A stretch of DNA of 64,000 nt from assembly GCF_031458325.1 (NCBI RefSeq), contig NZ_JAVDYG010000001.1, positions 3,534,001-3,598,000 of the forward strand, written 5' to 3'. Below, piece by piece: positions 8,414 through 30,454 of the stretch. The translations under genes were made by a program, and so were the position numbers. The notes below the pieces were generated by a model, which had not been told where the DNA came from, made no database searches, and saw nothing but the letters and a program-made list of their open reading frames with translations. The DNA is from Nocardioides marmoribigeumensis. Lineage in GTDB: Bacteria > Actinomycetota > Actinomycetes > Propionibacteriales > Nocardioidaceae. The number at the start of each line of letters is the position of its first letter. The first letter of the stretch is position 1.

Positions 8414-8466
8414 GGGGCGGGGCCGCAGCTCGCGAGGGGTGAGCCGGTCCCGACAAATGAACAGAT

Positions 8467-8487
8467 GCCGTCCCGTGGGGGGACGGC
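8467..8487 (+). other. Leader hairpin upstream of the EPS sugar transferase
   Basis: GCCGTCCC and GGGACGGC (8 bp) close a 5-nt loop GTGGG in the 109-bp gap between pth and the sugar transferase gene. It could be the pth terminator (no T-run follows) or a control element of the EPS gene leader. The choice is open. Confidence 0.4.
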
Positions 8488-8522
8488 CGCAACCACCTAC
8501 CAACCTTGGGGAGCTGGGGGAC

Positions 8523-9932
8523 ATGCCGACGATGCCTTCGACGGGCACCGCCACGACCGCGCGGGGGATGCAGCGGTCCGTCGCCCGCTCGGTGCCTGCC
8601 GAGCAGCGACGACGAGGCGCGATCCACCTCGAGGTGGGTCTTGCCATGATGGCGGCCGCCACGACGGCTCTCACCATGACCACCGACGCGGTCCTCCTCT
8701 GCGGCCAGCTGGTGCTCTGGGGCACCCTGGCCTACCGCCGCTCGGTCCCGCTGGCCGGACCGCCGCTGCGCCAGGTCCGTCCGCTCTTCCAGTCCCTCGG
8801 CATCGTGCTCGCGCTGACCTCGCTCGGCATCGCGCTGGGTCTCAACGACCTGGCCGGGCCTGCGCTCGCGCTGCCGATCTGCGCCGCCGCCCTCGCGGCG
8901 GCGGTCGGGCGGCTGCTCATGCTCCGACTGGCCGGCCCGATGCGCGTGCTGGTCGTGGGGGACCTCATGGCCGCCTCCCGGGCCGGACTGACCTGGCGGG
9001 GGAGCCGCCAGGTGAAGGTCGTGGGCAACATCGTCGTCCAGCCCGAGCAGACCTCGGCCGAGCCGCTCAAGGAGCTCCTGGGCGTGCCCGTGTGGAGCGA
9101 CCTCGACCAGCTGCCCGCGCTCGCCGAGGCCAGCCAGGCCGACCTCGTGGTCCTGGCGCCCGGCACCGGGCTCACCAGCGCCGACGTACGCCGGATCACC
9201 TGGGCGCTGCAGGACCACCACGCCGGTGTCGCGATGCTCGGCCTGTTCGACGCCGTCGCGCCCGAGCGCATCCGCGCCGGCCGCCTCGGCAACGAGACGC
9301 TCTGCGAGATCGACCCGCCCAAGGGCTCGCCGGTCGCGACGTTCCTCAAGGGCGCCTTCGACCGCCTCGCCGCGGCGCTGCTGCTGGTGGTGGCCGCGCC
9401 CGTGATGGCGGCGGTCGCGCTGGCGGTCAAGCTCGACAGCCGTGGACCCGTGCTCTTCCGCCAGACGCGGGTGGGGCGGCACGGCGCGCTGTTCACCGTC
9501 CTCAAGGTCCGCACGATGCGCTCCGACGCCGAGGAGGTCAAGGCCGAGCTGATCGACTCCAACGAGTTCGACGGGGTCCTGTTCAAGATCAAGCGCGACC
9601 CGCGGGTGACCCGGGTGGGCCAGTTCCTGCGGAAGTTCTCCCTCGACGAGCTGCCCCAGCTGCTCAACGTGCTGCGCGGCGAGATGTCGCTGATCGGACC
9701 GCGCCCGTTCCTGCCCGCCGAGACCGCCCAGATGGCCGCCGACGACCTGCGGCGCCTCGCGGTCAAGCCCGGCATCACCGGGCTGTGGCAGGTCAGCGGT
9801 CGCTCCGACCTCGACTGGGACGAGTCGGTGGCCCTGGACACCTACTACGCCGACAACTGGAGCCTCGGCTCCGACGTGCAGATCGCCCTGCGCACGGTCG
9901 GTGCGGTGATCAACGCCAAGGGCGCCTACTGA
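8523..9932 (+). CDS. Polyprenyl glycosylphosphotransferase (initiating EPS sugar transferase)
   Basis: A 469-residue polytopic membrane enzyme of the WcaJ/WbaP type. The N-terminal third has several hydrophobic helices, followed by a Rossmann-like segment (VLVVGDLMAASRAG). A re-entrant helix starts at KGAFDRLAAALLLVVAAPV, followed by the catalytic bacterial sugar transferase domain with FRQTRVGRHG, VLKVRTMRSDA and LPQLLNVLRGEMSLIGPRPF. It moves a sugar-1-phosphate onto undecaprenyl phosphate, the first committed EPS step. ATG 8523 is chosen for the GGGGAG-rich site before it; an in-frame GTG at 8439 would add 28 residues. It opens the EPS island. Confidence 0.9.
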   Translation: MPTMPSTGTATTARGMQRSVARSVPAEQRRRGAIHLEVGLAMMAAATTALTMTTDAVLLCGQLVLWGTLAYRRSVPLAGPPLRQVRPLFQSLGIVLALTSLGIALGLNDLAGPALALPICAAALAAAVGRLLMLRLAGPMRVLVVGDLMAASRAGLTWRGSRQVKVVGNIVVQPEQTSAEPLKELLGVPVWSDLDQLPALAEASQADLVVLAPGTGLTSADVRRITWALQDHHAGVAMLGLFDAVAPERIRAGRLGNETLCEIDPPKGSPVATFLKGAFDRLAAALLLVVAAPVMAAVALAVKLDSRGPVLFRQTRVGRHGALFTVLKVRTMRSDAEEVKAELIDSNEFDGVLFKIKRDPRVTRVGQFLRKFSLDELPQLLNVLRGEMSLIGPRPFLPAETAQMAADDLRRLAVKPGITGLWQVSGRSDLDWDESVALDTYYADNWSLGSDVQIALRTVGAVINAKGAY

Positions 9933-9961: not shown

Positions 9962-10789
9962 GTGACCGACCACGAGCCCGAGCAGGCCCTCTCCGACGTC
10001 GTCTCCGGGTTCGACCCGGGCACCCCCGCGCCAGGCCTCGACGACCACGGTCTCGCCGCCTGGCTGGCGACGGCGGCGGGCGACCTCCTCACCCAGGTGC
10101 GGGCGACCGGGCTCGAGGGCAAGGCCCTCAAGGACGCCGGTGACGGCGCCGCGCACGATCTCCTGATGCGGCTGCTGGCCGAGCACCGCCCCGGCGACGC
10201 GGTGCTGTCGGAGGAGGGCAAGGACGACAAGGTCCGCCTCACCTCCTCGCGCGCCTGGATCGTCGACCCGTTGGACGGCACGCGCGAGTTCTCCGAGCCC
10301 CCGCGCGAGGACTGGGCGGTGCACGTCGCTCTCTGGGAGGGGCACGACGGTGAGGGCGACCTCGTCGCCGGCGCCGTGGCGCAGCCCGGCCTGGGCCGCA
10401 CGTTCCACACCGGTGAGCCGCCGGTCGTGCCCGAGCGCACGTCCGAGCGCCCGCGCATCGCGGTCTCCCGCACGCGCCCACCGGCCTTCGTGCAGGCGCT
10501 CGCGGAGGAGATCGGCGCCGAGCTGGTCCCGATGGGGTCGGCCGGGGCGAAGGTGATCTCCGTGGTGCGCGACGTCTCCGACGCCTACGTCCACGCCGGC
10601 GGCCAGTACGAGTGGGACTCCGCCGCGCCGGTGGCGGTCGCGCGCGCCGTGGGCCTGCACACGAGCCGCGTGGACGGCAGCCCGCTGCGCTACAACCAGG
10701 ACGAGGTCCTGCTGCCCGACCTCGTCGTGTGCCGCCCCGAGCTGGCCGAGCCCATCCTGGCCTTCGTCCGCCGCCACGGCACCGAGTGA
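9962..10789 (+). CDS. cysQ: 3'(2'),5'-bisphosphate nucleotidase (CysQ-like PAP phosphatase)
   Basis: A 275-residue Li+-sensitive phosphatase of the inositol monophosphatase fold. Metal-binding motifs are visible: DAVLSEEGKDD (the EE pair), WIVDPLDGTREF (DPLDGT) and YEWDSAAPVAVA near the C-terminus. The REDWAVHVALW stretch fits CysQ more than HisN or SuhB. CysQ hydrolyses PAP, the by-product of PAPS-dependent sulfotransferases, and one such sulfotransferase is encoded in the same island (26910-27941). GTG 9962 lies 29 bp after the sugar transferase. The alternative is a general inositol phosphatase. Confidence 0.85.
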   Translation: MTDHEPEQALSDVVSGFDPGTPAPGLDDHGLAAWLATAAGDLLTQVRATGLEGKALKDAGDGAAHDLLMRLLAEHRPGDAVLSEEGKDDKVRLTSSRAWIVDPLDGTREFSEPPREDWAVHVALWEGHDGEGDLVAGAVAQPGLGRTFHTGEPPVVPERTSERPRIAVSRTRPPAFVQALAEEIGAELVPMGSAGAKVISVVRDVSDAYVHAGGQYEWDSAAPVAVARAVGLHTSRVDGSPLRYNQDEVLLPDLVVCRPELAEPILAFVRRHGTE

Positions 10790-11463
10790 GCGCACCGCGG
10801 CCCGCAGCGGTCCTGTGGGACGCCGACGGGGTGCTGCAGACCGTGCCCCGGGGGTGGGAGCACACGATGCGTCCCGTCGTCGAGGGCCACGTCGACGACG
10901 TCGAGGCGTTCCTGGTCGAGGCGTTCGAGGCCGAGGCGCCGTCGTTGCGTGGCGAGGTGCCCTGGTCGCGCCAGCTCACCGACCTGCTCGAGCGCTGGGG
11001 GGTGCCGGAGCTGCACGACCGCGCCCTGGAGGTGTGGTTCACCATCATCCCCGTGACCGGGTCGCGCGACCTGGTCCGCCGCGTCCGCTTGGGCGGGACC
11101 GGCTGCCACCTGGCCAGCAACCAGGACCGCACCCGGGCCGAGCACATGGTCACCGAGGTCGGCTACGACGAGCTGCTCGACGGCTGCTTCTTCAGCTGCT
11201 TCCTCGGGATCGCCAAGCCGGAGCCGGCCTTCTTCCGCGCGATCCTGGACGAGCTCGCCCTCGTGCCGGAGCAGGTGCTGTTCGTCGACGACAACCCGGT
11301 CAACGTCGCGGCCGCGGAGGGGCTCGGCATCCGGTCCCTGTGCTGGAACGACCGGGAGGACCTCGACCTGCTCGAGTCCTGGCTGCGTGGGCAGGGCGCG
11401 CTGGACGACCGAGGTCCCGCCCACGTGGCCCCCGCACGCACAATTTCAGGCCCTTGGGCCTAA
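10786..11463 (+). CDS. HAD family hydrolase
   Basis: A 225-residue haloacid dehalogenase-like phosphatase. Motif I is WDADGV with the Asp nucleophile near the N-terminus. Motif II Thr/Ser lies near LASNQDRT, the catalytic Lys near GIAKPEPAFF, and motif IV is VLFVDDNPVNVAAAEGLG. Its GTG overlaps the cysQ stop (GTGA), so the two are translationally coupled. The substrate is not evident; an EPS sugar-phosphate precursor or a housekeeping role are both possible. The last codons contain an inverted repeat discussed as a regulatory site. Confidence 0.87.
   Translation: MSAPRPAAVLWDADGVLQTVPRGWEHTMRPVVEGHVDDVEAFLVEAFEAEAPSLRGEVPWSRQLTDLLERWGVPELHDRALEVWFTIIPVTGSRDLVRRVRLGGTGCHLASNQDRTRAEHMVTEVGYDELLDGCFFSCFLGIAKPEPAFFRAILDELALVPEQVLFVDDNPVNVAAAEGLGIRSLCWNDREDLDLLESWLRGQGALDDRGPAHVAPARTISGPWA
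11448..11461. promoter_or_regulatory. Perfect 14-bp palindrome before the surface propeller gene
   Basis: AGGCCCTTGGGCCT sits at the end of the HAD gene, 100 bp before the surface protein start. It has the same arm length as the GGGAC-N4-GTCCC boxes before the two glycosidases, but with A-to-C changes. It may be a weak member of the same operator family or a terminator stem for the cysQ-HAD transcript. About 40 nt downstream GCGTGA/TCACGC forms another inverted repeat (about 11497-11519). Confidence 0.35.
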
Positions 11464-11560: not shown

Positions 11561-13861
11561 GTGTTCCGTTCACAGCTGCTGCGCTGGCTCGTGCTGGCGG
11601 TCGGTCTCGCCACGATCTGGGGGGCCACCTCCCTGGTCGTCGCCCAGGCCGCCGTCCAGGTCAGCCCCAGCGCGTCCCCGAGCTGGCGGGTCAACGGCAA
11701 GGTGTCGGCGACCGTGGTCAGCGGCGACACCCTGGTCGTCGGTGGCAGCTTCACCACCGCGACCGCTCCTGACGGCACGACCGCCCCGCGGGCCAACCTC
11801 GCGGCGTTCTCCATGTCGACCGGCGCGCTCCTGACCGGGTGGCGCGCCGACACCGACGGCAAGGTGCTCGCCCTGAGCGTCACCGGCACGCGGGTCTTCG
11901 TGGGAGGGTCCTTCACCACCGTGGCCGGCCAGTCCCGCCCCCACCTCGCGCGGGTGAGCCTCGCCGACGGCGCGCTCGCGGCGCCCTCCTGGCAGCTCGA
12001 CGGCGACGTGATGTCGCTGGAGTCGGCGGGCGAGACGGTCTACGCGGGCGGTTCCTTCCTCACCCTGGGCGGGCTCGACCAGTACCGCCTGATGAAGCTC
12101 GAGGCCGGCACCGGCGCCGTCGACCGCACGTTCTTCCCACGCACCAACGGACCCGTGCAGGCGCTGCAGCTGGCTCCGGACGGCAGCCGGCTCTTCGTCG
12201 GCGGCTCGTTCACCACCCTCAGCGGCCTGAGCCGCAACGGTCTCGGTGTCCTCGACCCCGCCACCGGCGAGCCGACCGCCACCGTCTTCCCCTACTCCGT
12301 GTCGCCCACCCTCAGCCTGGCCATCGACGACACCGGCAGCCGGATCTTCGCCGGCTCCGCCAACGTCAACAACGTCATCAGCGCCTACAGCACCGCGACC
12401 GGTGCCTTGGCGTGGCAGCACGTCGCCGACGGTGACATCCAGGCGGCCGACTACTACGACGGCACGGTCTACTTCGGCTTCCACGAGGGCGACGGCGGTG
12501 ACACGACCGTCCGGATGCTCGCCGCCGATGCGGCCACGGGCGCGATCGACACCGCCTTCCGGCCCACCTTCGACGCGTTCTACGGCGTCTTCGCCATCGA
12601 CGCCGGACCGTGGGGGATCGCGGCGGGCGGCGTGTTCACCAGTGTCTCCGGGGTGCCGGCCCAGGGCTTCGTGCGCTTCACCACGCCCCGGACGTCCGCG
12701 ACCACCACGCTGCTGCCCTCGGGCTCCACGTGGCGCTACCTCGACACCGGCCAGGTGGCCGCGGGGTGGCAGACCGTGGGCTTCGACGACCGTGGCTGGT
12801 CGAGCGGGCCGGCCCAGCTCGGCTACGGCGACGGTGACGAGCGCACCGTCGTCAACAGCGGGCCCTCCACCGGCCACTACCCGACGACCTGGTTCCGCAC
12901 GACCTTCGACGGGGGGTCCACCGCGCCGACCTCGCTGGTCCTGTCGCTGATGGCCGACGACGGTGCGGTGGTCTACCTCAACGGCGTCGAGGTGGCGCGG
13001 GACAACCTGCCGACCGGCACGATCACGGCCGACACCTGGGCGCTCACGGCGCGGGCGGGTGCCGAGGAGTCGGCGTTCCGCGACGTGCAGCTGGCCGACG
13101 GGGTGGCCCGTGCGGGCACCAACGTGGTGGCGGTGGAGGTGCACCAGGAGAGCGCCTCGTCCTCCGACGTCAGCTTCGACCTGGCGCTGCGCGGGGCCAC
13201 CACGGCCTCGTCGCCCTCCAGCTCCCCGACGAGCCCGGTCAGCTCGCCGACCAGCCCCACCACGTCGCCGACGAGCCCGACGACCTCGCCGACCTCGCCG
13301 ACCTCGCCGACCTCGCCGACCAGCCCCACCACGTCGACCACCAGCCCCACACCGCCGCCGCCCACGACCTACGTCCCGGCCGGCACGGCGTGGCGCTACT
13401 GGGACAAGGGGACGCGTCCGACCGGGTGGTCGGCGACCTCGTTCAGCGACACCACCTGGGCCTCCGGCAACGCCGAGCTCGGGTTCGGTGACGGTGACGA
13501 GGCCACGGTGGTCTCCTCCGGAGGTCGCAAGTCGGTCTATCTGACGTCGTACTTCCGCCGCACCTTCAGCGTCCCGGTCCTGCCGACGGTCGACCTGCGG
13601 CTCTCGATGGTGATCGACGACGGCGCGGTGGTCTACGTCAACGGGCGCGAGGTCGCCCGCGACAACATGCCGACGGGCACCGTGAGCAACACGACCAGGG
13701 CCTCGACGGCGCGTGCCGGCGCCGCCGAGCGGGCCTGGCGGGACTTCACCGTGCCGCGGTCGGCGCTGGTCGCGGGGACCAACCTGATCGCCGTCGAGGT
13801 GCACCAGGACAGCACGTCCTCGAGCGACCTCAGCTTCAACGCCCTGCTGCGCACCCCCTGA
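11561..13861 (+). CDS. Secreted beta-propeller surface protein with two C-terminal EPS-associated domains
   Basis: A 766-residue exported protein. A signal peptide/anchor covers residues 1-30 (LLRWLVLAVGLATIWGATSLVVAQAA). Residues about 35-375 hold propeller-like repeats with the recurring strand VFVGGSFTTVAG / VYAGGSFLTLGG / LFVGGSFTTLSG, resembling delta-60-type repeats. Residues about 383-547 and 603-766 are two copies of one domain (PSGSTWRYLDTG ... GYGDGDE ... VYLNGVEVARDNLPTG ... NVVAVEVHQ), joined by a Ser/Thr/Pro linker made of TSPTSPTS repeats. The same domain ends both glycosidases downstream. The GTG start follows a GGGG-rich site. A matrix or cell-surface role is inferred; no enzyme motif is seen. 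Confidence 0.82.
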   Translation: MFRSQLLRWLVLAVGLATIWGATSLVVAQAAVQVSPSASPSWRVNGKVSATVVSGDTLVVGGSFTTATAPDGTTAPRANLAAFSMSTGALLTGWRADTDGKVLALSVTGTRVFVGGSFTTVAGQSRPHLARVSLADGALAAPSWQLDGDVMSLESAGETVYAGGSFLTLGGLDQYRLMKLEAGTGAVDRTFFPRTNGPVQALQLAPDGSRLFVGGSFTTLSGLSRNGLGVLDPATGEPTATVFPYSVSPTLSLAIDDTGSRIFAGSANVNNVISAYSTATGALAWQHVADGDIQAADYYDGTVYFGFHEGDGGDTTVRMLAADAATGAIDTAFRPTFDAFYGVFAIDAGPWGIAAGGVFTSVSGVPAQGFVRFTTPRTSATTTLLPSGSTWRYLDTGQVAAGWQTVGFDDRGWSSGPAQLGYGDGDERTVVNSGPSTGHYPTTWFRTTFDGGSTAPTSLVLSLMADDGAVVYLNGVEVARDNLPTGTITADTWALTARAGAEESAFRDVQLADGVARAGTNVVAVEVHQESASSSDVSFDLALRGATTASSPSSSPTSPVSSPTSPTTSPTSPTTSPTSPTSPTSPTSPTTSTTSPTPPPPTTYVPAGTAWRYWDKGTRPTGWSATSFSDTTWASGNAELGFGDGDEATVVSSGGRKSVYLTSYFRRTFSVPVLPTVDLRLSMVIDDGAVVYVNGREVARDNMPTGTVSNTTRASTARAGAAERAWRDFTVPRSALVAGTNLIAVEVHQDSTSSSDLSFNALLRTP

Positions 13862-13867
13862 GGCGGC

Positions 13868-15640
13868 TCAGCTGGTCTTCAGCATCCGGAACATCTTGAG
13901 GTCGAAGCGCACGTCGGACGAGCTCCGGTCGGCGTTGTGGATCTCGACCGCGATCACGTTCTTGCCCTTGCGCAGCAGCCGGCTGGAGAAGCTGCGGCTG
14001 AGCCAGGTGGTCTCGGCGTCGATGTCGGAGATCGTGGTCCGCGCCGGCGTGCCCCAGCTGAAGCCGCTGGGCAGGTTGTCGGTCCAGACGCGACGGTTGT
14101 TGACGTAGACCGCGATGGCGTCGTCGCGCTGCACCTGGAGCCAGAAGCGGCTGGTGGCGCCGGGCTTGGCGATCCAGAGGTTCTTGCGGAACGCGTAGGT
14201 CATGCGCGAGGCGTGCACCCGGGAGCGCAGGCCCTCGTCGCCGTAGCCGAGCACCGAGGTGCCGGTCTTCCAGGAGCGGGCGTTGAACCGGATCTTCTTC
14301 CAACCCCAGGCCTTGCGGCCGGAGTCGTTGAACTTCCAGCGCGACCCGCTCGGCACGAGCGTCTGCCGCCGCATCGTGGGGATGATCCGAGGCTCGGACG
14401 TGGGGTCGGAGGTCGGGGCCGTGGTGGGGGTGCTGGTTGGGGTGCTGGTGGGGGTGCTGGTCGGGGTGCTGGTCGGGGTGCTGGTGGGGGTGCTGGTCGG
14501 AGACGCGGTGGGGCTGGTGGTGGGCAGCTGGACGGTGCCACGCAGGACCTTGAAGAGGGGGAGGACCGCGCGCGGGGTGAAGTCGCGCTTCATCAGGCCG
14601 TAGCCGTCCTGCTGGGCGTTGCCGGTGTTCTTGTCGCGGCTGTTGTACCAGATCATCGTCTCGACCTGGGGCCAGCGCTTCTGGGTGAGGGCGACGGCGC
14701 GCTGGAAGTAGTCGGCCTGGGTCGCCTCGGTGACGCCGCGGTTCCACGGCTCGGTGGTCGAGCTGTTGTCGTGCACCGACCAGCCGAACTCGGTGAACCA
14801 GATCGGCTTGGCGGAGTCGCCACGGGTGGCCATGAGGGAGACCAGCGTGTCGGTGTACATCATCGTCCAGATGTTGCCGTTGGCCGGCGTCTCGGGGGCG
14901 GCGTCGGCGGGGCCCATGTAGGGGTGCACGGCCATGGTGTCGAAGTAGTTCTTGGCGCCGGCGTCGTAGGTCTTCTGGATCCAGGGCGTGTCGACGTACA
15001 TCGTGCCGCCGAAGACGATGTTGACGCCCGGGTCGGCGGCGTGGGCCGCGGTGTAGCCCGCCTTGAGCAGCGCCGTGTACTTCGCGGGGTCGGCGCCGAC
15101 GAAGAAGTCGGCGGAGTTGGGCTCGTTCCAGATCTCCCAGGCGTCGACCTTGCCCTTCCACAGCGACACGAAGTGCGCCAGTGCGGTGCCGTAGGTCCGG
15201 GGGTCGGTCGGGGCGGCGAGGGGACCCTTGCCGCCGTTGGCCCAGTCGGGCGTGCGCCAGAAGGTGACCAGGACCTTGAGGCCGCGGGCCTTCGCCGCCT
15301 CGATCTGCTTCTGGACGAAGGGCACGGCCCAGCCGGTGTCGTAGGTGCCGGCCTGGGGCTGGAGCATCGCCCAGCCGACGTCGATGCGCACCCACTGGAC
15401 GCCGTTGGCCGACATCGCGTCGAGCTCCTTGGCGCGGTCGGTGTCGGTCTGGTCGGACCAGGTGGCGTGCCACTGCGCGCCGAGACCGGGGCCGGTCGTG
15501 GTCGCCGCGCCCGCGGGGGATGCGGTCGAGGCGGTCGCCACGGTGACCAGCAGCGCAGCCAGGACGGCCGACGTCACGGTGGCCACCAGGGCCTTCAGCA
15601 GGGTGTGCGGTGCTGTGGGGCGCACGGCAGCAACAGTCAT
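13868..15640 (-). CDS. Secreted clan GH-A glycoside hydrolase (PslG-like) with linker and C-terminal binding-like domain
   Basis: A 590-residue exported glycosidase. The signal peptide is residues 1-46 (ending SPAGAA). The catalytic TIM barrel spans about 48-395, with WEIWNEPN giving the acid/base Glu173 and WFTEFGW giving the nucleophile Glu284, typical of clan GH-A (GH5/GH39-like). A Thr/Ser/Pro linker of repeated TPTS follows, then the shared C-terminal domain (about 427-590). PslG-type enzymes cut the polysaccharide made by their own cluster, a likely role here (inference). ATG 15640 follows GGGAGG. The barrel is nearly identical to that of the next gene. Confidence 0.87.
   Translation of the reverse strand: MTVAAVRPTAPHTLLKALVATVTSAVLAALLVTVATASTASPAGAATTTGPGLGAQWHATWSDQTDTDRAKELDAMSANGVQWVRIDVGWAMLQPQAGTYDTGWAVPFVQKQIEAAKARGLKVLVTFWRTPDWANGGKGPLAAPTDPRTYGTALAHFVSLWKGKVDAWEIWNEPNSADFFVGADPAKYTALLKAGYTAAHAADPGVNIVFGGTMYVDTPWIQKTYDAGAKNYFDTMAVHPYMGPADAAPETPANGNIWTMMYTDTLVSLMATRGDSAKPIWFTEFGWSVHDNSSTTEPWNRGVTEATQADYFQRAVALTQKRWPQVETMIWYNSRDKNTGNAQQDGYGLMKRDFTPRAVLPLFKVLRGTVQLPTTSPTASPTSTPTSTPTSTPTSTPTSTPTSTPTTAPTSDPTSEPRIIPTMRRQTLVPSGSRWKFNDSGRKAWGWKKIRFNARSWKTGTSVLGYGDEGLRSRVHASRMTYAFRKNLWIAKPGATSRFWLQVQRDDAIAVYVNNRRVWTDNLPSGFSWGTPARTTISDIDAETTWLSRSFSSRLLRKGKNVIAVEIHNADRSSSDVRFDLKMFRMLKTS
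14736..15073. repeat. 338-bp block identical to 16725-17062 (paralogous glycosidase genes)
   Basis: By reading both copies, every base from 14736 to 15073 matches the second copy at an offset of 1989. Flanking catalytic-domain sequence is also close but carries scattered differences. It covers the part of the barrel that includes the nucleophile Glu. The block points to recent duplication or gene conversion between the tandem glycosidases. Confidence 0.9.
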
Positions 15641-15698
15641 CTCGAGGTCCTCCCAAACCGCGAATGGAATCCGGGCCGGCCTCTCCCAAAGCAGCGGC

Positions 15699-15737
15699 CC
15701 AGGACTTAAGTGTGCACTGTTATGGGACCTAGGTCCC
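15699..15737 (-). promoter_or_regulatory. DevR/DosR-like box and conserved promoter block of the first glycosidase
   Basis: GGGACCTAGGTCCC (15724-15737) is a perfect palindrome matching the GGGAC-N4-GTCCC core of DevR/DosR boxes. On the minus strand the sequence CACACTTAAGTCCTGG (15714-15699) starts 16.5 nt from the palindrome centre. The identical 16-mer occurs at the identical distance from the box before the second glycosidase. Activation by a NarL/DevR-type response regulator is an inference; no such regulator is encoded in this window. Confidence 0.6.
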
Positions 15738-15781
15738 GAAAAGGGGGCAATAGGGCGATTCTTTTTACGCTGCCCCTGTGA

Positions 15782-15824
15782 CGAGGTCGTGACCGGTCGG
15801 TGGTGGCGACCGGTCACGACCTCG
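15782..15824 (-). terminator. 17-bp-stem hairpin after the second glycosidase gene
   Basis: Arms 15782-15798 and 15808-15824 (CGAGGTCGTGACCGGTC and its complement) pair perfectly around a 9-nt loop. It lies 36 bp downstream of the second glycosidase stop. No T-run follows on the minus strand, so it may act as a factor-independent hairpin of the actinobacterial type or as an mRNA end-stabiliser. It would also separate that transcript from the next gene's promoter. Confidence 0.65.
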
Positions 15825-15859
15825 GTGGCGGGGGCACAGGCCCCGCCGGGGGCCCTGCC

Positions 15860-17593
15860 TCAGCGCTCCATCTTCAGGTTGAACTTGATGTCCGAGGAGG
15901 TCGTGTCGGCGTTGTGCACCTCGACCGCGATCACGTTGGTGCCACTCACCAGGAGGCTCGTGGGGAGCGTCTTGGAGATCCAGGTGGACTCGACGGCGTT
16001 GTCGTAGATCGTGGTGGCCGCCGGCGTGCCCCAGCTGAAGCTGCTGGGCAGGTTGTCGGTCCAGGCGAGCCGGCCGTTGACGTAGACGGCGACCGCGTCG
16101 TCACGCTGCACGGACAGCGTGAACGTCGAGGTCCGACCCGGGTCGGTCACCGAGACGGTGCGCCGGAAGGCGTAGGTCATCCTGCCCGAGGCGACCCGGG
16201 TCACGATGTCGCTGTCGCCGTAGCCCAGCTGGGCGACGCCCTGCTTCCACCTGGAGTCCTTGAAGCTCGTGGAGCTCCAGCCCCTCTGCATCGACCCCGA
16301 GTCGTTGTAGCGCCAGGTCGCTCCGGAGGGGATGAGCACCTGGGTGGGGGCCGTCGACGTGGTGGTCGACGTGGTGGCGGTGGCCGTCGCGGTGGGGGTC
16401 GCGGTGGCCGTGGCGGTGGGGGTGGCCGTGGCGGTCGCCGTGGGCGTGGCCGTGGCGGTCGCCGTGGGCGTCGCGGTGGCGGTCGGGCTCGTGGTGGTGG
16501 TGGTGGTCGTCGTGGCGCCGGTGGAGCCCGCCAGCTGCCCGAACAGCGGGAGGATCGTGCGCGGGGTGAAGTCGCGCTTCATCAGGCCGTAGCCGTCCTG
16601 CTGGGCGTTGCCGGTGTCCTTGTCGCGGCTGTTGTACCAGATCATGTTGGTGACCTGGGGCCAGCGGCTCTGGGTGAGGGCGACGGCACGCTTGAAGTAG
16701 TCGGCCTGGGTCGCCTCGGTGACACCGCGGTTCCACGGCTCGGTGGTCGAGCTGTTGTCGTGCACCGACCAGCCGAACTCGGTGAACCAGATCGGCTTGG
16801 CGGAGTCGCCACGGGTGGCCATGAGGGAGACCAGCGTGTCGGTGTACATCATCGTCCAGATGTTGCCGTTGGCCGGCGTCTCGGGGGCGGCGTCGGCGGG
16901 GCCCATGTAGGGGTGCACGGCCATGGTGTCGAAGTAGTTCTTGGCGCCGGCGTCGTAGGTCTTCTGGATCCAGGGCGTGTCGACGTACATCGTGCCGCCG
17001 AAGACGATGTTGACGCCCGGGTCGGCGGCGTGGGCCGCGGTGTAGCCCGCCTTGAGCAGCGCGGTGTACTGCACCGGGTCGGCGCCGACGAGGAAGTCCG
17101 AGGAGTTGGGCTCGTTCCAGATCTCCCAGGCGTCGACCTTGCCCTTCCACAGCGACACGAAGTGCGCCAGCGCGGTGCCGTACGTCGCCGGGTCGGTCGG
17201 AGCGGTCAGGGGGCCCTTGCCGCCGTTGGCCCAGTCGGGCGTGCGCCAGAAGGTGACGAGCACCTTGAGGCCGCGGGCCTTCGCCGCCTCGATCTGCTTC
17301 TGGACGAAGGGCACGGCCCAGCCGGTGTCGTAGGTGCCGGCCTGGGGCTGGAGCATCGCCCAGCCGACGTCGATGCGAACCCACTGGACGCCGTTGGCCG
17401 ACATCGCGTCGAGCTCCTTGGCGCGGTCGGTGTCGGTCTGGTTCGACCAGGTGGCGTGCCACTGCGCGCCGAGGCCGGGGATCGGGTTGGTGGCGGCACC
17501 GGCGGGGGCAAGGCCGGTGCCGAGGGTGACGAGGATTCCGGTGACGACGGTGGTCACCAGGCTCGCGACGAGCGCGCGGGCAGGCAGCTTCAT
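15860..17593 (-). CDS. Secreted clan GH-A glycoside hydrolase, paralogue of the preceding gene
   Basis: A 577-residue exported glycosidase. The signal peptide covers residues about 1-34 (ending LAPAGAA). The barrel is almost the same as that of the neighbour, with acid/base Glu161 in WEIWNEPN and nucleophile Glu272 in WFTEFGW. The linker differs: alternating Thr-Ala-Thr-Ala-Pro repeats instead of TPTS. The last about 160 residues (418-577) are the shared domain, with PSGATWRYNDSG and NVIAVEVHNADTTSSD. ATG 17593 follows GGGAGG. The paralogues thus keep enzyme and end domain but have exchanged or evolved the linker. The substrate is probably the cluster's own EPS (inference). Confidence 0.87.
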   Translation of the reverse strand: MKLPARALVASLVTTVVTGILVTLGTGLAPAGAATNPIPGLGAQWHATWSNQTDTDRAKELDAMSANGVQWVRIDVGWAMLQPQAGTYDTGWAVPFVQKQIEAAKARGLKVLVTFWRTPDWANGGKGPLTAPTDPATYGTALAHFVSLWKGKVDAWEIWNEPNSSDFLVGADPVQYTALLKAGYTAAHAADPGVNIVFGGTMYVDTPWIQKTYDAGAKNYFDTMAVHPYMGPADAAPETPANGNIWTMMYTDTLVSLMATRGDSAKPIWFTEFGWSVHDNSSTTEPWNRGVTEATQADYFKRAVALTQSRWPQVTNMIWYNSRDKDTGNAQQDGYGLMKRDFTPRTILPLFGQLAGSTGATTTTTTTTSPTATATPTATATATPTATATATPTATATATPTATATATTSTTTSTAPTQVLIPSGATWRYNDSGSMQRGWSSTSFKDSRWKQGVAQLGYGDSDIVTRVASGRMTYAFRRTVSVTDPGRTSTFTLSVQRDDAVAVYVNGRLAWTDNLPSSFSWGTPAATTIYDNAVESTWISKTLPTSLLVSGTNVIAVEVHNADTTSSDIKFNLKMER

Positions 17594-17654
17594 TCGGGGT
17601 CCTCCCAAACCTCGATGAAATGGTGGGTGTCCGGACGGGCTCTCCCAAGCGCGA

Positions 17655-17695
17655 CCAGGACTTAAGTGTGGGGGGACCCGGGACTTTGGTCCCGG
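17655..17695 (-). promoter_or_regulatory. DevR/DosR-like box and conserved promoter block of the second glycosidase
   Basis: CCGGGACTTTGGTCCCGG (17678-17695) has perfect 7-nt arms and matches the DevR/DosR core GGGACTTTNGTCCC. The same CACACTTAAGTCCTGG block (17670-17655, minus) lies at the same 16.5-nt distance from the centre as at the first glycosidase. The box also lies in the divergent gap to the deacetylase gene (start 17829) and could affect both directions. Confidence 0.65.
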
Positions 17696-17828
17696 AAACG
17701 ACACCGAACGGACGGATCCTTTACTCACCCGTCTGGACAGGGGTGGTTCGGCGGACGTCCACGGCGGTGCCCGGCATACTGATCCGCGGCGTCTGCGCGG
17801 CGCCGAGGGCGACCACGGAGGTGTCGTG

Positions 17829-18659
17829 ATGGGGGGCTCCCGGACGGGGCGGCGCCGGCTGCGACCCCGGGGTCGGTCGCCGGTGGTGCTGCTCTACCAC
17901 GGCTTCACCGACGTCCCCCGCACGGACGACCCGGAGAACCTCTACGTCACCGGGCACGACTTCGCCGCCCAGCTCGACCACCTGCTCGCCGCCGGCTGGA
18001 AGCCGCTGGACCTCGACCAGTACCTTCAGGCACTGGACCGTCCCGGTGCCCACGGCCGCAGCTTCCTGGTCACCATCGACGACGGGCTGGGCTCGGTCGG
18101 TGAGATCGCGGCCCCCATCCTCGAGGCGAGAGGGATTCCGGCCGTGCTGTTCGTCCCCGCGGGGCTCGCGGGCGCCACCGCCGAGTGGCTCCCCGAGCCC
18201 GCCGACGAGCCGATCATGTCCCCCGACGACCTGCGCGAGCTCGCCGCCACGACCCGGATCGAGATCGGCGGCCACGGCTGCCGGCACGTCCAGATGGTCG
18301 ACCTGACCGACGGCCAGCTCCACCAGGAGACCACCGAGGTCAAGGAGACCCTGACCCGCATGCTCGGCCGACCCGTGCGGGCCTTCGCCTACCCGTTCGG
18401 CGACCACGACGCCGCCTCGGTCCGGGCGGTCGAGGAGGCCGGCTACGAGGTGGGCTTCTCGGTGCACCGCGACCTCGGCCGCTTCGCGATCTCGCGCGTG
18501 GACGTCAACGCCAGGGACAACGAGCGCACGTTCCGCCTCAAGCTCATCCCGTGGTACCGCGTGTGGTGGCGCCTGCTGGAGTACGTCCCGCTCGTCCGCC
18601 GGACCGCCAACCTCCTGCTGACCCGCCGCGGCGGCAACGCGCGAGCACCACGCGGATGA
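17829..18659 (+). CDS. Polysaccharide deacetylase (NodB homology domain)
   Basis: A 276-residue protein of the carbohydrate esterase 4 fold. Motif 1 is TIDDGLGS (usual TFDDG), motif 2 HGCRH gives the two metal His, and FAYPFGDHD is the following conserved block. It would remove N-acetyl or O-acetyl groups from a polysaccharide or lipid-linked precursor. No signal peptide is visible, so it may act in the cytoplasm or be exported by other means. ATG 17829 has GGAGG 7 nt upstream; the GTG one codon earlier is too close. Its stop overlaps the flippase start (ATGA). Confidence 0.88.
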   Translation: MGGSRTGRRRLRPRGRSPVVLLYHGFTDVPRTDDPENLYVTGHDFAAQLDHLLAAGWKPLDLDQYLQALDRPGAHGRSFLVTIDDGLGSVGEIAAPILEARGIPAVLFVPAGLAGATAEWLPEPADEPIMSPDDLRELAATTRIEIGGHGCRHVQMVDLTDGQLHQETTEVKETLTRMLGRPVRAFAYPFGDHDAASVRAVEEAGYEVGFSVHRDLGRFAISRVDVNARDNERTFRLKLIPWYRVWWRLLEYVPLVRRTANLLLTRRGGNARAPRG

Positions 18660-20119
18660 CCCCCGAGCGCACCTCTCGGACCGGTCACACCGCGCGGGTC
18701 GCCGCGCTCAACGTCGTCGTCCGCGGCTCCGCGGAGGTCTTCGGCAAGGTCGCGACGTTCGTCTGGACGATCTTCGCCGCTCGCCAGCTCACGCAGGGCG
18801 AGTTCGGCGCGGTGTCCTACGCCCTCACGCTGATGCTCGTGCTCAGCGCGCTGCCCAACGGTGGCTTCGAGGTCGGGCTCGTGCGCCAGGGGAGCGCGAG
18901 GCCCGAGCTGCTCAACCGCGTCTTCAGCCAGACGCAGGCGTGGAAGTCGCTCCTGGGGGTCCCGGTCTTCGGGGTCGCGGTCCTGGTGACCGTCCTGACC
19001 GAGCCGTCGCCGACGACCGCCCTGGTGGTGGTGCTGTTCCTGGTCGCGGGCTTCCCCGAGATGTGGAGCTCGACCCTGCGCAGCGCCTCCACCACGATCC
19101 AGAAGCCCTGGGCGTCCTCCTCCGCGCTGGTCCTGCAACGCATCGTCACCGCGGTGCTCATCGTGGCGGTGGCGTGGGCCAACCCGACACCGCTCGGGGT
19201 CGCGATCGGCTTCTGCCTGGGCACCTTCGTGGGCTGGGTCGCCCACGTGGTCGCGCTGCGTCGTGCAGGCGTGCACCTCGTCCCCTCGGAGATCCACCGC
19301 GCGGGGCTGGTCGACCTGCTCAAGGACACGTGGGTCGTCGGCATCAGCGGCATGGTCCTGATGGCGCTGTTCCGGCTCGACGCGATCCTCCTCCAGGCCA
19401 TGGTCGGCTACGAGGCGGTCGCGAACTACTCCGTGGCCTACCGCATCCTCGAGACGGTGCTGTTCGTGACCTTCTCGGTCAACCAGGCGATCTTCCCGGT
19501 GATGAGCGCCACCACCCAGATCGAGCGCATCCGCAACGCCTACGAACGCGGGCTCGCGGTCATCGGGTTCGTCTACCTGCCGTTCGCCACCGTCTGCGTC
19601 GTCGAGAGCGGCGAGGTGATCCAGCTGCTCTTCGGCCCGCGCTACGTCGACAGCGCCACGCCGATCCTGCAGTGGCTCGCACCGGCGCCCATGTTCTACG
19701 CCGTCGCGTTCTTCGGGGCAGCGGTGCTCTACTCACGGCAGCGGCAGGTCGAGACGCTCGCCGCGGCCGTGACGGCGACCGTGGTCAACGTGACGGCCAA
19801 CCTCCTGCTGATCCCGAGGTGGGAGGGCACCGGCGCGGCGGTCGCCACCTCGCTGAGCTACCTCGTGCACGGGTCGATCATCCTGGTCGCCGTGCGGCGT
19901 GCGGGCATCAAGGTCGGCGTCCTGCGGCCCCTCCTCGAGTCGGGCGTGGCCTCGGTCGTGCTGGTCCTGCTGCTGCTCGCCCTCTCGACGCCGCTGCTGG
20001 TCGAGCTCGCCCTGGGGGGCGTCGTCTACCTCGCCGTCTGGACCGCCCTGTGCCGGGTGACCGCTCCTGAGCAGCTCGAGGTCGTCGGCTCCCTCCTCAA
20101 CCGGGTGCGGTCCCGGTGA
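18656..20119 (+). CDS. Oligosaccharide flippase (Wzx/MOP superfamily)
   Basis: A 487-residue integral membrane protein with about 12-14 hydrophobic helices. The N-terminus reads VVVRGSAEVFGKVATFVWTIFAARQLTQGEFGAVSYALT, the hallmark start of polysaccharide biosynthesis flippases. It would move lipid-linked repeat units across the membrane for the Wzy-like polymerase. It overlaps the deacetylase by ATGA and the next kinase gene by GTGA, so the three form one unit. The open frame running upstream to 18185 is a shadow of the deacetylase gene. Confidence 0.9.
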   Translation: MTPERTSRTGHTARVAALNVVVRGSAEVFGKVATFVWTIFAARQLTQGEFGAVSYALTLMLVLSALPNGGFEVGLVRQGSARPELLNRVFSQTQAWKSLLGVPVFGVAVLVTVLTEPSPTTALVVVLFLVAGFPEMWSSTLRSASTTIQKPWASSSALVLQRIVTAVLIVAVAWANPTPLGVAIGFCLGTFVGWVAHVVALRRAGVHLVPSEIHRAGLVDLLKDTWVVGISGMVLMALFRLDAILLQAMVGYEAVANYSVAYRILETVLFVTFSVNQAIFPVMSATTQIERIRNAYERGLAVIGFVYLPFATVCVVESGEVIQLLFGPRYVDSATPILQWLAPAPMFYAVAFFGAAVLYSRQRQVETLAAAVTATVVNVTANLLLIPRWEGTGAAVATSLSYLVHGSIILVAVRRAGIKVGVLRPLLESGVASVVLVLLLLALSTPLLVELALGGVVYLAVWTALCRVTAPEQLEVVGSLLNRVRSR

Positions 20120-22438: not shown

Positions 22439-23818
22439 TCACTCGGGCCGGGCGAGGGGGCCGGTGCGGCCCAGCCAGGTCGCCTCGACGACGCCGGTCA
22501 TCTTGCCGACGTCCTTGACCAGCTGCGCGGCCGGGAGGAGCGCGAGGGCGCGGGGGTCCTCGCGGCGCCGGACCAGGCGCGCCGCGGGGAAGCCGAGGAT
22601 CGCGACCGCCCCGGCCCCGGCGACCCGGCGGTGCCCGGGACGGGGGGAGACGGCGAGGGCGGCGAGGCCGACGTAGCCCACGCCGCGGACCAGGTCGACG
22701 CGCCGCTGGGCGGGCGACCCGCCGGCCGCGGCGCCCCGGCCGTAGCCGCGGAACTGGCGGAAGGCGAGCCGGGCCGAGCTGCGCTGGAACCACACGACCG
22801 TCGCGTCGGGGACCAGGGCGTGATGGGCGCCGCCGGCGATCGCGTCGCGGCCGAAGGCCTCGTCCTCGGCGGTCAGGAGGTCCTCGCGGAACCCGCCCGC
22901 CGCGTCGTACGCCGAGCGGGTGAAGGCGACGGAGCGGCCGTCCACGCGGTCACCGGAGTACTGCGGGCCGATCGTCCGCAGCCACAGCCGCCACGGGAGG
23001 CTGGCCCGGCGCAGCTCGCCGGCGTCGGGCCACGCGACGGCGGCGAACGCGGCCTCGAACAGCCGGTCGCCGACGTGGGCGGCGTAGACCCCGGTGAGCA
23101 GCGTCGGGTCCTCGACGTCGTCGAAGGCGCCCCGGAAGGCCTGCAGCCAGCCCGGGTCGACCCGGCAGCCCGCGTCGGTGCAGGCGACCAGGTCGTGCCG
23201 CGCCTCGCGGACACCGTGGTTGCGGCTGCCGGCGATCGTGCAGGGCTCGACCTCGACCAGACGCACGCGGGGGTCGCGCTCGGACTAGGACCGCAACCTG
23301 TCGCGGGTGCCGTCCACCGAGCCGGAGTCGACCACGAGGACCTCGTCGTCGGGGGTCAGCTGCGGCAGCAGCGGCTCGAGCACCTGGTCGATCACGCGCA
23401 CCTCGTCGAGCGCGGGGACGACGACGCTGACCGGACGGCCGCCCTGCGCCCCGCGCCCGGGCCGGCCGGCCAGCAGGGCCAGGTCGCGCGCGGTGGTGGC
23501 GGCGTCCGCCACCTCCAGGGGGCGTACGCCGAGGCGCCGGTCCAGGCGGTCGGGCGCGGCCGGCGCGACGGACCCGGTCGACCGGGCCCGGACCAGGCGG
23601 AGGCCGAGCCACCACGCCGCCAGCAGCGTCGCGGTGGGGCGGTGGCCCTCGACGAGGACGAGCACGTCGGGGGAGAGGGCGCGCAGCTCGGCCGGGCCGG
23701 CGGTGCGCCGGGTGGCGAGCACCTCCACCCGGCCGGAGGAGACGAGCAGGTCGGCGAGCCGGGTCGTGGTCGGTCCGTCGCCGAGGAGGAGGCAGCGCAG
23801 CGGCGCGCGAGGCGTCAC
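22439..23818 (-). pseudogene. Family 2 glycosyltransferase interrupted by an in-frame TAG
   Basis: Read through, this is a 459-residue protein. An N-terminal Rossmann-like half (LLLGDGPTTTRLADLLVSSG) is followed by a GT-A domain starting VSVVVPALDE, with VLVVDSGSVDGTRDRL, DAGCRVDPGW and LTAEDEAFGRDA, and C-terminal hydrophobic segments. An amber codon at 23287-23285 (minus strand CGG TCC TAG TCC GAG) splits it after 177 residues. The reading frame continues unchanged on the other side, with a GTG at 23266 as a possible restart. So it is either a point mutation, a sequencing error or read-through. The separated halves would not make a normal GT-A active site. GTG 23818 starts 18 bp after the propeller/LamG gene. 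Confidence 0.8.
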
Positions 23819-23836
23819 AGGTCGGTCACCGTCCGC

Positions 23837-26230
23837 TCAGCCGCCGAGGCCGAGGTCGTGGTGGGCGGCCACCGTCTCCGGCGAGAGCTGGTGGAGGTAG
23901 ACGGCGAGCTCGTCGACGGTGCCGGCGTAGTTGCGCTGAGCGGGCTCCTTGGGCCAGCCGGCGAGCCGGTCGCCGCCCACCTGCCACGACCCGGCGTAGG
24001 CCGAGGTGGACCGCTTGGTCGAGTCGCCCGCCACCCGCCGGCCGTCGAGGTAGAGCACCGTCCCGGCGTCGCCGTGGGTGGCGACGGCGTGGTGCCACCG
24101 GTCGTCGTCGACCCGCGCCCCGCTGCGGACGACGTGCGGAGCCCGCGACCCGTCGTACATCCCGAAGACGAGCCGGCCGTCGGTGTCGACGTAGAGGTGC
24201 CGGTCGGCGTAGGAGCTGAGCGTGGTCTGGCTGGAGCCGTAGCCGACGATCTTGCCGGTGCCCGACCCCTTGAACCAGACCTCGACGCTGAACGTCGACG
24301 GGGCGGCTGTCCGGGAACGTCCGCGCGCCATGCCGAGCACCCCGTCGAGCTGGACCGCGGTGTCGTCGGGGACGCCCTGGAGCGCGCCCGGGACGCCGCG
24401 CGTGACGCCGCCGGAGGTGTAGCGCCCGCCCCCGCCGGCCGGCACGAGCGTGCCGGCGACGCGGTCGGCCTGGTCGTCGAACGGCCAGTAGAGCTGCGGC
24501 CGGTCCGCGAGGACGCGCCGGCGGTAGGCGTCGGGGCCGGAAGCGACGGTCACGGTGGTCGCGGTGGAGGGCGCGCTCGCCACACCGGCGCCGTCGGTGG
24601 CGACCACGCGGTAGCCCACCCGCGAGCCGGGCGTGAGGCCCGTGTCGAGGAACGACATCGTGGGACGCGGGGTGTCGTGCGACGAGGTGGCGCTGCGGGT
24701 GGCGACGACCGTGCCGCCGCGCAGCAGGGAGTAGCCCAGCGTCGCGTTGTCCCAGTCGTCGGTGGCCTCCCACGTCACGCGGACGCGGCCGGACGCGTCG
24801 CTCACCGCGAGCGGAGCCGAGGGCTGCTCGGGGGCGATCGAGGGGACGCCGGGGTCGCGGGCCGGGCCGAAGCGGGTCAGGCCCTGCTGGGGATCGCCGT
24901 TGACGGTGGTGAACTCGCCGCCGGCCCACAGCACGTCGGCGGTCGGGGAGTAGGTGAGGTCGCGCGGGCCGAGGGACCCGACGATGCCGCCGTCGGTGGT
25001 CGGCATCCAGTGCAGGAGGCGGGGTGCCCCGGAGCCGACCACCTCGGCCTGGAAGCGGTGGTAGTGCTCGTCGCCGGGCTTGTCGAGGAGGTGGCGTGCG
25101 GTCTCGCGGAAGCCGCCGGGGACGGCGTGGCAGTCGTGGGCGTGGGAGCCGGTGTAGAGGGAGGAGCCGACCCGCTCGATCGCCCAGGTGGCACCGAGGC
25201 AGGTGTTGCGCCAGCGCACGACCCCGTTGGTCGGGTTGATCGCCAGGCGGCCGTCGAAGACGTGCTCGCCGAGACCTTCGGTGGCGACGTAGACCGTGTC
25301 GCGGTCGACGGCGAGGTCGGTGACGTAGGAGCGGCGCCCCCCGTTGGTGCCCCGGAGCGGGTTGCCGGACCAGGCCGTGTTGGCGCCGGTGGCCGCGCTG
25401 ACGGCTCGGACGCCCCGCCGCAGCTGGCCGTTGACCCGGTCGAAGTCGCCGCCGATGATCACGCGCTTCTGGTCGGCGGTGATCGCCATCGCGATGACGT
25501 AGCCGTTGACCCGAGGAGCCCAGGAGGTCAGCGCGCCGTTGTCGGTGCGGACCGCGGCGACCTTGTAGCGCCTGCGCCCGGAGACCTGGGAGATCTGCCC
25601 CCCGATGTAGAGCCGGGAGGCGCTCGGCACGAGCGCGCGGACCCGTCCGTAGACGCGGTCGACGCGGAACGAGGTCAAGGCCCCGGAGCTGACCCGGAAC
25701 GCCGCCACGTTGCCGCGCACGCGTCCGTCGACGGTCTGGAAGTCACCGCCGACGAAGATGCGCGAGCGGTCGTGGGAGGCGCGGATCTCGTAGACCGTGT
25801 CGCAGGTGTAGGTGCCGGCCCTGGCGCCCCTGGAGCACTCCTTGTCGTAGACACCGGAGGAGGGGATCGGGTAGCTGGGCGCCCGGAAGGCGTGCGAGAA
25901 GGGGAGCAGCGCCCCGGTCGTGGCGTTGAACGCCGCCATGTTGCGCCGGGCGACCTCCCTCGTGCCGGGAGCCGCGCCCGGGGGGCGGACCTTGGTGAAG
26001 TTGCCGCCGACGTAGACCACGTTGCCGACCGCCTCGACGGCGTAGACGACCCCGTTGGTCTGGTAGGTGGGCAGCGGCTGGGCGGTGAAGCGGGTGTCGC
26101 TGGTCGGCGTGGGATCGGTGGCACGCGCCCTGAGGGCGGCGCCGGTGGCGGTCGTGCCCGGCACCCAGGCGAGGAGCGGGACGAGGAGGGCGCCCAGCGC
26201 GGCGCCGAGCAGGCCGGACCGGGTCCTCAC
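23837..26230 (-). CDS. Secreted beta-propeller, fibronectin-III-like and LamG-domain surface protein
   Basis: A 797-residue exported protein. The signal peptide is residues about 1-34. Residues about 50-450 hold propeller repeats (VYVGGNFTKV, IFVGGDFQTVDG, LYIGGQISQVSG, VIIGGDFDRVNG) of the same kind as the 11561 gene. About 480-570 resembles a fibronectin type III domain (PSAPLAVSDASGRVRVTWEA). The C-terminal about 200 residues are a LamG/concanavalin-like fold (FSVEVWFKGSG, WHHAVATHGDAGTVLYLDG). Its GTG overlaps the Wzz gene stop. It probably binds or organises the EPS outside the cell; no catalytic motif is seen. Confidence 0.82.
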   Translation of the reverse strand: MRTRSGLLGAALGALLVPLLAWVPGTTATGAALRARATDPTPTSDTRFTAQPLPTYQTNGVVYAVEAVGNVVYVGGNFTKVRPPGAAPGTREVARRNMAAFNATTGALLPFSHAFRAPSYPIPSSGVYDKECSRGARAGTYTCDTVYEIRASHDRSRIFVGGDFQTVDGRVRGNVAAFRVSSGALTSFRVDRVYGRVRALVPSASRLYIGGQISQVSGRRRYKVAAVRTDNGALTSWAPRVNGYVIAMAITADQKRVIIGGDFDRVNGQLRRGVRAVSAATGANTAWSGNPLRGTNGGRRSYVTDLAVDRDTVYVATEGLGEHVFDGRLAINPTNGVVRWRNTCLGATWAIERVGSSLYTGSHAHDCHAVPGGFRETARHLLDKPGDEHYHRFQAEVVGSGAPRLLHWMPTTDGGIVGSLGPRDLTYSPTADVLWAGGEFTTVNGDPQQGLTRFGPARDPGVPSIAPEQPSAPLAVSDASGRVRVTWEATDDWDNATLGYSLLRGGTVVATRSATSSHDTPRPTMSFLDTGLTPGSRVGYRVVATDGAGVASAPSTATTVTVASGPDAYRRRVLADRPQLYWPFDDQADRVAGTLVPAGGGGRYTSGGVTRGVPGALQGVPDDTAVQLDGVLGMARGRSRTAAPSTFSVEVWFKGSGTGKIVGYGSSQTTLSSYADRHLYVDTDGRLVFGMYDGSRAPHVVRSGARVDDDRWHHAVATHGDAGTVLYLDGRRVAGDSTKRSTSAYAGSWQVGGDRLAGWPKEPAQRNYAGTVDELAVYLHQLSPETVAAHHDLGLGG

Positions 26231-30453: not shown

Positions 30454-30454
30454 C

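Follow-up and report, generated by a model that had tools for sequence, protein, structure and literature searches.

Three neighboring genes in a 64,000-nucleotide stretch of Nocardioides marmoribigeumensis DNA (hereafter the window, positions 3,534,001–3,598,000 of the 4.44-Mb single-contig genome) share a domain of approximately 160 residues, which is called the module in the following. It is present in four copies (M1 to M4), two on a protein with a predicted propeller and one on each of two tandem glycoside hydrolases (GH-A and GH-B), and all three genes lie within an exopolysaccharide (EPS) cluster. The features of these genes are as follows:

11561–13861, + strand: propeller protein of 766 aa carrying M1 and M2 (PF17164, DUF5122, 45 bits, cut-off 27)
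11678–12688, + strand: propeller domain, with a predicted structure most similar to WD40-type 7-bladed propellers
12710–13201, + strand: M1, residues 384–547, in the middle of the propeller protein
13202–13366, + strand: Ser/Thr/Pro-rich linker between M1 and M2, from the translation
13367–13858, + strand: M2, residues 603–766, C-terminus of the propeller protein
13868–15817, − strand: GH-A, clan-A-type glycosidase with Ser/Thr/Pro linker and M3 (PF00150, 28.1 bits, cut-off 23.5)
13871–14371, − strand: M3, C-terminus of GH-A
14736–15073, − strand: 338-base run in GH-A, identical to 16725–17062 (DNA comparison)
15860–17728, − strand: GH-B, tandem twin of GH-A, with linker and M4 (open reading frame (ORF) with GTG start at 17728, alternative ATG at 17593)
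15863–16342, − strand: M4, C-terminus of GH-B
16725–17062, − strand: 338-base run in GH-B, identical to 14736–15073 (DNA comparison)

By sequence comparison, the four copies are true homologues. Their alignment (A1) has 39 invariant columns, and M2, M3, and M4 are 53%, 35%, and 41% identical to M1, respectively. BLASTP scores between different copies ranged from 79 to 194 bits, compared with 25.8 for the best of 1000 shuffled copies. When hidden Markov models (HMMs) were built with one copy left out, the omitted copy was always recovered, with E-values between 6e-50 and 2e-62, whereas not one of 1000 shuffled decoys reached E ≤ 10. The four-copy profile found exactly M1 to M4 in the whole genome and nothing else at E ≤ 1, and M2 as a protein query had no match among 72,556 plasmid records. 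A preliminary description of this DNA had placed the four copies correctly, and the motifs quoted there hold with small variation (GFGD for GYGD and DNMP for DNLP in M2, GYGDEG as the core of M3), as do the Ser/Thr/Pro linkers, one of which separates M1 from M2 and one of which precedes each of M3 and M4. The interval it gave, 12707–17593, contains the modules but spans whole genes, with 17593 being the in-frame ATG of GH-B. With regard to its claim of unrelated partners, propeller and glycosidase do differ; however, the catalytic domains of GH-A and GH-B are 95% identical and therefore not independent, which leaves partners of two kinds instead of three.

For comparison with known folds and families, two wider profiles were used, A2 with 39 rows and A5 with 81 (77 loci from GTDB and the four copies of the window; L092, L095, and L115 were left out). 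An AF2 model of M1 from 81 sequences (pLDDT 95.7) consists of strands except for one short helix and is a predicted jelly roll. Its best VIA match was 5uj6_B (Z 13.5, 133 residues, 3.0 Å), and the 50 matches listed are beta-glucuronidases, beta-galactosidases, and like enzymes, aligned within about residues 1–245, which we take, in part by their titles, to be GH2 enzymes. The GH2-type N-terminal domain is the closest listed solved fold, with 16–21% identity to the module in the ten best rows, whereas no GH2 N-domain model of Pfam matched any of the 81 copies at E ≤ 0.001.

At the level of sequence, the nearest solved relatives are Ca2+-dependent sugar binders. The α-L-rhamnosidase SaRha78A of Streptomyces avermitilis (3w5m/3w5n), which carries a CBM67, a carbohydrate-binding module (CBM), was matched over the whole chain of 3w5m at E = 2.4e-10 with A2 and 1.4e-4 with the four copies alone; the module differs from it by its own W..FDD.W, GYGDGDE, and SSD motifs, has no rhamnosidase attached, and gives weak single-stretch scores. 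The lectin of Pleurotus ostreatus (6t0q, 6t1d, 6kbj) followed at 0.0014–0.0016 with A2 and 1.9e-4 with the four copies alone. It shares with the module an Asp-Asp pair followed by YVNG, but the match covers approximately 45 residues only, and the fungal protein consists of two such domains. In NCBIfam, 37 of the 81 copies singly matched rhamnosid_Stmyc (NF041573) at E ≤ 0.001, far below the cut-off of this full-length model, and residues 58–151 of M1 align with its positions 154–232. At the same threshold in Pfam, three of the 81 copies matched PF13364, three PF14683, and one LamG; in the window, the sole match was that of M1 to BetaGal_ABD2 (PF13364, 25.2, cut-off 23). Most copies match neither BetaGal_ABD2 nor the CBM-like PF14683, so that these models do not describe the family, and judging from these searches the module is without a family of its own in the Pfam and NCBIfam versions used. 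That the module belongs to an extensive bacterial family without a name, akin to CBM67-like domains, is part of our best explanation, to which as a whole we give even chances.

All 81 copies of A5 have both Asp83 and Asp84; among the rows of A2, Asp stands at position 84 in 39 of 39 and at position 83 in 35, with Asn in the other four. The pair aligns with Asp-Asn within residues 150–213 of SaRha78A, presumably its CBM67, and with Asp-Asp in the Pleurotus lectin. In CBM67 itself, we assume that Asp-Asp/Asn has a role at the Ca2+/sugar site. As judged by alignment, the module shares the adjacent Asp-Asp/Asn of such a CBM67-type site, which the conserved HQ....SSD loop may complete. According to PMC11512411, two consecutive Asp residues serve Ca2+-based sugar binding in the Pleurotus lectin group, on the basis of models and lectin structures, and PMC4690510 presents CBM67 as a calcium-dependent CBM seen with rhamnose. 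The predicted jelly roll and the closest relatives by sequence both speak for sugar binding, and the module is probably glycan-binding and Ca2+-dependent.

We therefore favor, with a probability of roughly 0.5, the reading that the module is an exchangeable, probably Ca2+-dependent glycan-binding address shared by the scaffold and the enzymes of the EPS cluster. It would grip the glycan through a Ca2+ ion held by the invariant Asp-Asp pair; the two copies on the secreted WD40-like propeller scaffold and the one on each clan-A glycosidase would constitute a shared address, holding these proteins on the EPS or on an EPS anchor at the cell surface, where the glycosidases would trim the polymer to which the scaffold binds. 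In other words, we infer sugar binding, Ca2+ dependence, the cluster's own polymer as ligand, and the scaffold and trimming roles, with the ligand and the Ca2+ dependence being the weakest steps.

Several observations on fold and relatives weigh against this reading. The strength of the link to the sugar binders varies with the profile used: with A5, the wider one, SaRha78A reached a chain E of 2e-7 only as a sum over several domains (i-E 0.12–0.52 for single stretches), the Pleurotus lectin fell to 0.055–0.068, and neither was among the 15 matches of M3 alone at E ≤ 10. SaRha78A, the lectin, and CBM-titled entries are also missing from the 50 fold matches listed, which says nothing against kinship, and GH2 N-terminal domains need not bind sugar. 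The module could instead be a generic structural or protein-binding β-sandwich, that is, a stalk, cap, or docking domain without a glycan ligand, which would recur in EPS clusters because it is abundant on secreted proteins in general. The GH2-type fold agrees with this, and many conserved residues (Trp, Gly, R63, N91, N138) look structural, whereas the invariant Asp-Asp pair and the Ca2+-dependent sugar binders as nearest solved sequence relatives do not; we consider this alternative unlikely, although it deserves serious attention.

Turning to the enzymes, GH-A and GH-B both contain WNEPN and WFTEFGW, which we take to be the two catalytic Glu motifs of clan GH-A, and by these and the profile matches they classify as clan GH-A glycosidases (GH5/GH39-like). 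GH-A exceeds the cut-off for PF00150, and GH-B gave GH42, GH39, and GH1 matches only, all under cut-off. No PDB relative of the catalytic domain was found at E ≤ 0.001, which counts against our reading; the two enzymes probably trim the same polymer. A comparable EPS-cluster glycosidase would be PslG of the Psl locus, likewise a clan-A glycosidase encoded beside its EPS; PslG is not known to carry such a C-terminal module, in which it differs from GH-A and GH-B. In addition to the 338-base run, the twins share two 50-codon windows with full DNA identity, whereas M3 and M4 agree in 57% of residues and 59–72% of bases. Either the similarity of the catalytic halves has been maintained by gene conversion, or the twins arose recently and underwent divergence or exchange at the C-terminus.

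The N-terminus of the propeller protein resembles, by eye, a signal peptide. A model of the propeller built from four sequences (pLDDT 91.1) had its best Z of 33.0 to WD40-type 7-bladed propellers, and the matches listed are WD40, G-protein-beta, RACK1, designed propellers, and like scaffolds, so that on the model a binding scaffold is the likeliest role. A second propeller protein in the same cluster carries a C-terminal LamG domain in place of the module, and the propeller proteins of relatives bear the module, PKD, Fn3-like, or LamG-like parts, or a combination of them. This interchange of the C-terminal part for LamG, or with PKD included, is also what a generic β-sandwich would allow. In one relative, Nocardioides sp. 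TF02-7 (L054:8929-10501), the match to the propeller is in another frame than that to the module, which reflects a frameshift or an assembly error.

The surroundings of the module genes comprise the following features:

8439–9932, + strand: initiating sugar-phosphate transferase (PF02397; TIGR03025 EPS_sugtrans, 333.6 bits, cut-off 295.55)
9962–10789, + strand: inositol-monophosphatase family, CysQ-like (NCBIfam cysQ, 93 bits, below its cut-off)
10612–11463, + strand: HAD-family hydrolase (ORF start provisional)
17826–18659, + strand: polysaccharide deacetylase (PF01522)
18185–20119, + strand: Wzx-like flippase (PF01943; ORF start assigned mechanically, actual start further downstream)
23840–26226, − strand: second propeller protein, ending in LamG (PF13385) and lacking the module (start set by eye)
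26227–26979, − strand: Wzz-like chain-length protein (assigned by eye, unmatched in NCBIfam)
26910–27941, − strand: sulfotransferase (PF00685/PF13469)
27938–29326, − strand: Wzy_C polymerase/ligase-like protein (PF04932)
29323–30708, − strand: glycosyltransferase group 1 (PF00534)

A phosphotransferase-like protein and a GNAT-type acetyltransferase are encoded as well. With PF02397/TIGR03025, PF01943, PF04932, and PF00534 present, the gene content identifies a real Wzx/Wzy-type EPS cluster, and the EPS island assumed in the preliminary description stands, given a transferase above the TIGR03025 cut-off together with flippase, Wzy_C, glycosyltransferase, sulfotransferase, and deacetylase. A family-2-like glycosyltransferase frame at 22439–23836 (− strand, by eye) is interrupted by an in-frame stop near 23285 and may be a pseudogene, a sequencing error, or two genes. 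Sulfotransferase homologues were seen in 16 of 40 compared regions and CysQ-like phosphatases in 12 of 40, counted without a background control (the comparison included L144–L147, L153–L154, L157–L159, L192–L196, L052, and L062). A CysQ-like phosphatase would recycle the by-product of a sulfotransferase, and the recurrence of both homologues suggests a sulfated EPS in these clusters.

Linkage of the module to EPS genes was measured by the distance to a PF02397 initiating transferase, for which the null is approximately 2.5% per site within 20 kb (mean over genomes). In the family sample, with the own genome excluded and sites divided into strong and weak by E-value (G102:C1:1288316 is weak despite its propeller), 20 of 33 strong sites lay within 15 kb of PF02397, where 0.66 were expected, and none of 15 weak ones; within 30 kb, the counts were 22/33 and 1/15. 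A propeller profile run over 62 genomes returned 102 genes in 51 genomes, 53 of them within 20 kb of PF02397. This was the case for 31 of 50 propeller genes with a module (own genome included) and for 22 of 52 without, a slight difference (Fisher p 0.05). Because linkage differs only slightly with and without the module, it is the propeller, with or without the module, that marks EPS clusters in Actinomycetes. The search for profile hits in EPS clusters, as proposed in the preliminary description, thus found linkage far above chance, but the EPS-linked module-free propellers count against our reading and weaken the idea that the module is the cause of the link. Of the module sites, 30 of 49 with a propeller were near PF02397 versus 7 of 34 without (Fisher p 3e-4, ignoring kinship), and three of these seven sites within 20 kb (G022, G907, G085) are really propeller genes, misplaced by the distance rule or a contig end. 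The 62 genomes are related and were picked for carrying the module, which makes the counts less compelling as they are not independent; many are drafts, so that "not near" includes "on another contig". The phylum-level genomes G353, G464, and G575, none with PF02397 on the contig of the module, were excluded from the module list. Counted by hand from the genus labels, a propeller–module gene occurs in 15 genera, in 10 of which at least one such gene is no more than 20 kb away from PF02397, and two genomes without a transferase nearby (G194, G136) have a sulfotransferase and a CysQ-like gene within the same 20-kb region.

Apart from those in propeller genes, there were four module sites within 20 kb of PF02397, and all are glycosidases of three kinds: the window pair (G000), GH16 enzymes over the Pfam cut-off (G452, G820), and a GH26-like enzyme just below it (G728, 19.1 bits, cut-off 20.2). 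Each of the four clusters also contains a propeller–module gene. This pattern argues against a generic β-sandwich, as does the nearest sampled homologue of the window enzymes (G024, 67%), in which a Pro-rich linker leads to a CBM96 (71.1 bits, cut-off 26) at the place of the module. However, none of the remaining EPS proteins of the window had a homologue in the 20-kb region of G024, and the glycosidase of this genome may therefore not be an EPS enzyme, which reduces the support it lends to a glycan-binding address. In the family sample of 197 genomes, 17 have homologues of the window glycosidases at E ≤ 1e-20, the own genome being one of them. In G176, a module-free one lies approximately 7 kb from a transferase, and in G614, whose sole module site is on a propeller gene, another has a Wzy homologue, propellers, and glycosyltransferases in the same 20-kb region; since both enzymes stand without it, an EPS-cluster glycosidase does not need the module.

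If the module had merely been copied between neighboring genes by recombination, its sharing would be without functional meaning. The genes are indeed adjacent, M1 and M2 sit in one protein, and the identical bases of the glycosidase twins attest to recent duplication or gene conversion. In the module tree, on the other hand, M3 and M4 form a branch of their own apart from M1 and M2, M1 is nearest to the propeller of a Micrococcales metagenome-assembled genome, and M2 to propellers of other genomes, although these branches are partly weak (quick method, 25 of 58 inner branches open). The glycosidase-borne copies need three changes in this tree, at least two of them forced by well-supported branches, and such sharing recurs with different GH families elsewhere among the genomes. 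Local copying between propeller and GH genes receives no support from the tree, and we regard it as very improbable as an explanation. Separately, near-identical tandem copies within one protein (L189, L192, L157, L161; tree distances near 0) point, by their sequence, to recent intragenic duplication or conversion.

The distribution of the module reaches well beyond these clusters. With the own genome included, it was detected in 2 of 5 genomes of the genus and 40 of 197 of the family sample (both E ≤ 1e-5), in 32 of 394 of the class sample (E ≤ 1e-15), and in 8 of 396 of the phylum sample (E ≤ 1e-10); in the large samples, the best first-look candidates per genome were scored, and the counts are lower bounds. 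Among GTDB genomes, at least 574 of 585 pattern matches were confirmed as the module. The best 80 loci are 44–55% identical to M1, and the majority belong to Verrucomicrobia, Planctomycetes, Bacteroidetes, and further phyla; four are titled Actinomycetota (L052, L054, L061, L062) and 76 belong to other or unplaced organisms, in a search that may have left out near relatives of the window. Hence, the earlier suggestion of a tag specific to this matrix does not hold, and specificity for actinobacterial EPS is ruled out. The partners are equally broad: 75 of the best 80 proteins (L060 and L090 were too long, L092 has an internal stop, and L095 and L115 contain X) included 24 with Metallophos, 25 with CotH, and 24 with LTD. 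DUF5122 was a partner in two of 39 scanned proteins and is not among the 25 families listed for the other 36. An initiating-transferase homologue was found in the flanks of two of the 80 loci (tblastn 1e-8; flanks often short), both from Herbidospora species (Streptosporangiales) with the transferase approximately 4–5 kb from the module; non-actinobacterial loci were judged by their own flanks only. Of 14 actinobacterial carriers without propeller and far from EPS clusters (13 of 27 propeller-free sites and one phylum-level genome), 13 have Metallophos and one of the set GH92, and a further carrier (L199) is also a Metallophos protein. These partners speak against our reading and for a generic β-sandwich. 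As phosphatase and CotH/LTD partners are common in other phyla, and phosphatases also away from EPS clusters, the family is unlikely to serve EPS binding alone. The binding tag that the preliminary description proposed from recurrence is partly supported: the module recurs on two GH16 and one GH26-like EPS-cluster enzymes but also on many non-EPS partners.

Such phosphatases without an EPS link would also fit a module that binds the wall polymer or a surface glycan of the producing cell instead of the EPS and keeps the proteins at the export site. Neither a sortase motif nor a C-terminal transmembrane stretch was seen by eye in the translations of the propeller protein, GH-A, and GH-B, and all three would need another anchor. 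The presence of the module in EPS clusters and on their glycosidases, however, fits the polymer equally well, and we rate a wall or surface anchor as improbable.

Extending the glycan-binding address beyond the window, we tentatively propose that an unnamed, widespread, Ca2+-dependent lectin-like family may serve as an interchangeable matrix address in actinomycete, often sulfotransferase-bearing, EPS clusters, having been joined independently to WD40-like propellers and at least three kinds of EPS-trimming glycosidase, with scaffold and enzyme recognizing the same polymer; we hold this to be possible but less than even. If true, it would be a clue to how Actinomycetes retain proteins in their exopolysaccharide matrix, and propeller, module, and module-bearing glycosidase near an initiating transferase would form a sequence test for matrix proteins. 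Beyond that, a very common bacterial domain is flagged here, with the prediction of an Asp-Asp pair, Ca2+, and a glycan. In the open-licence literature, judged by titles and abstract starts, no account of this propeller/module/EPS system was found.

Another region of this genome (G000:C1:1631765-1661912) contains, within approximately 30 kb, a second initiating transferase together with three more distant homologues of the window glycosidases (28–33% identical).

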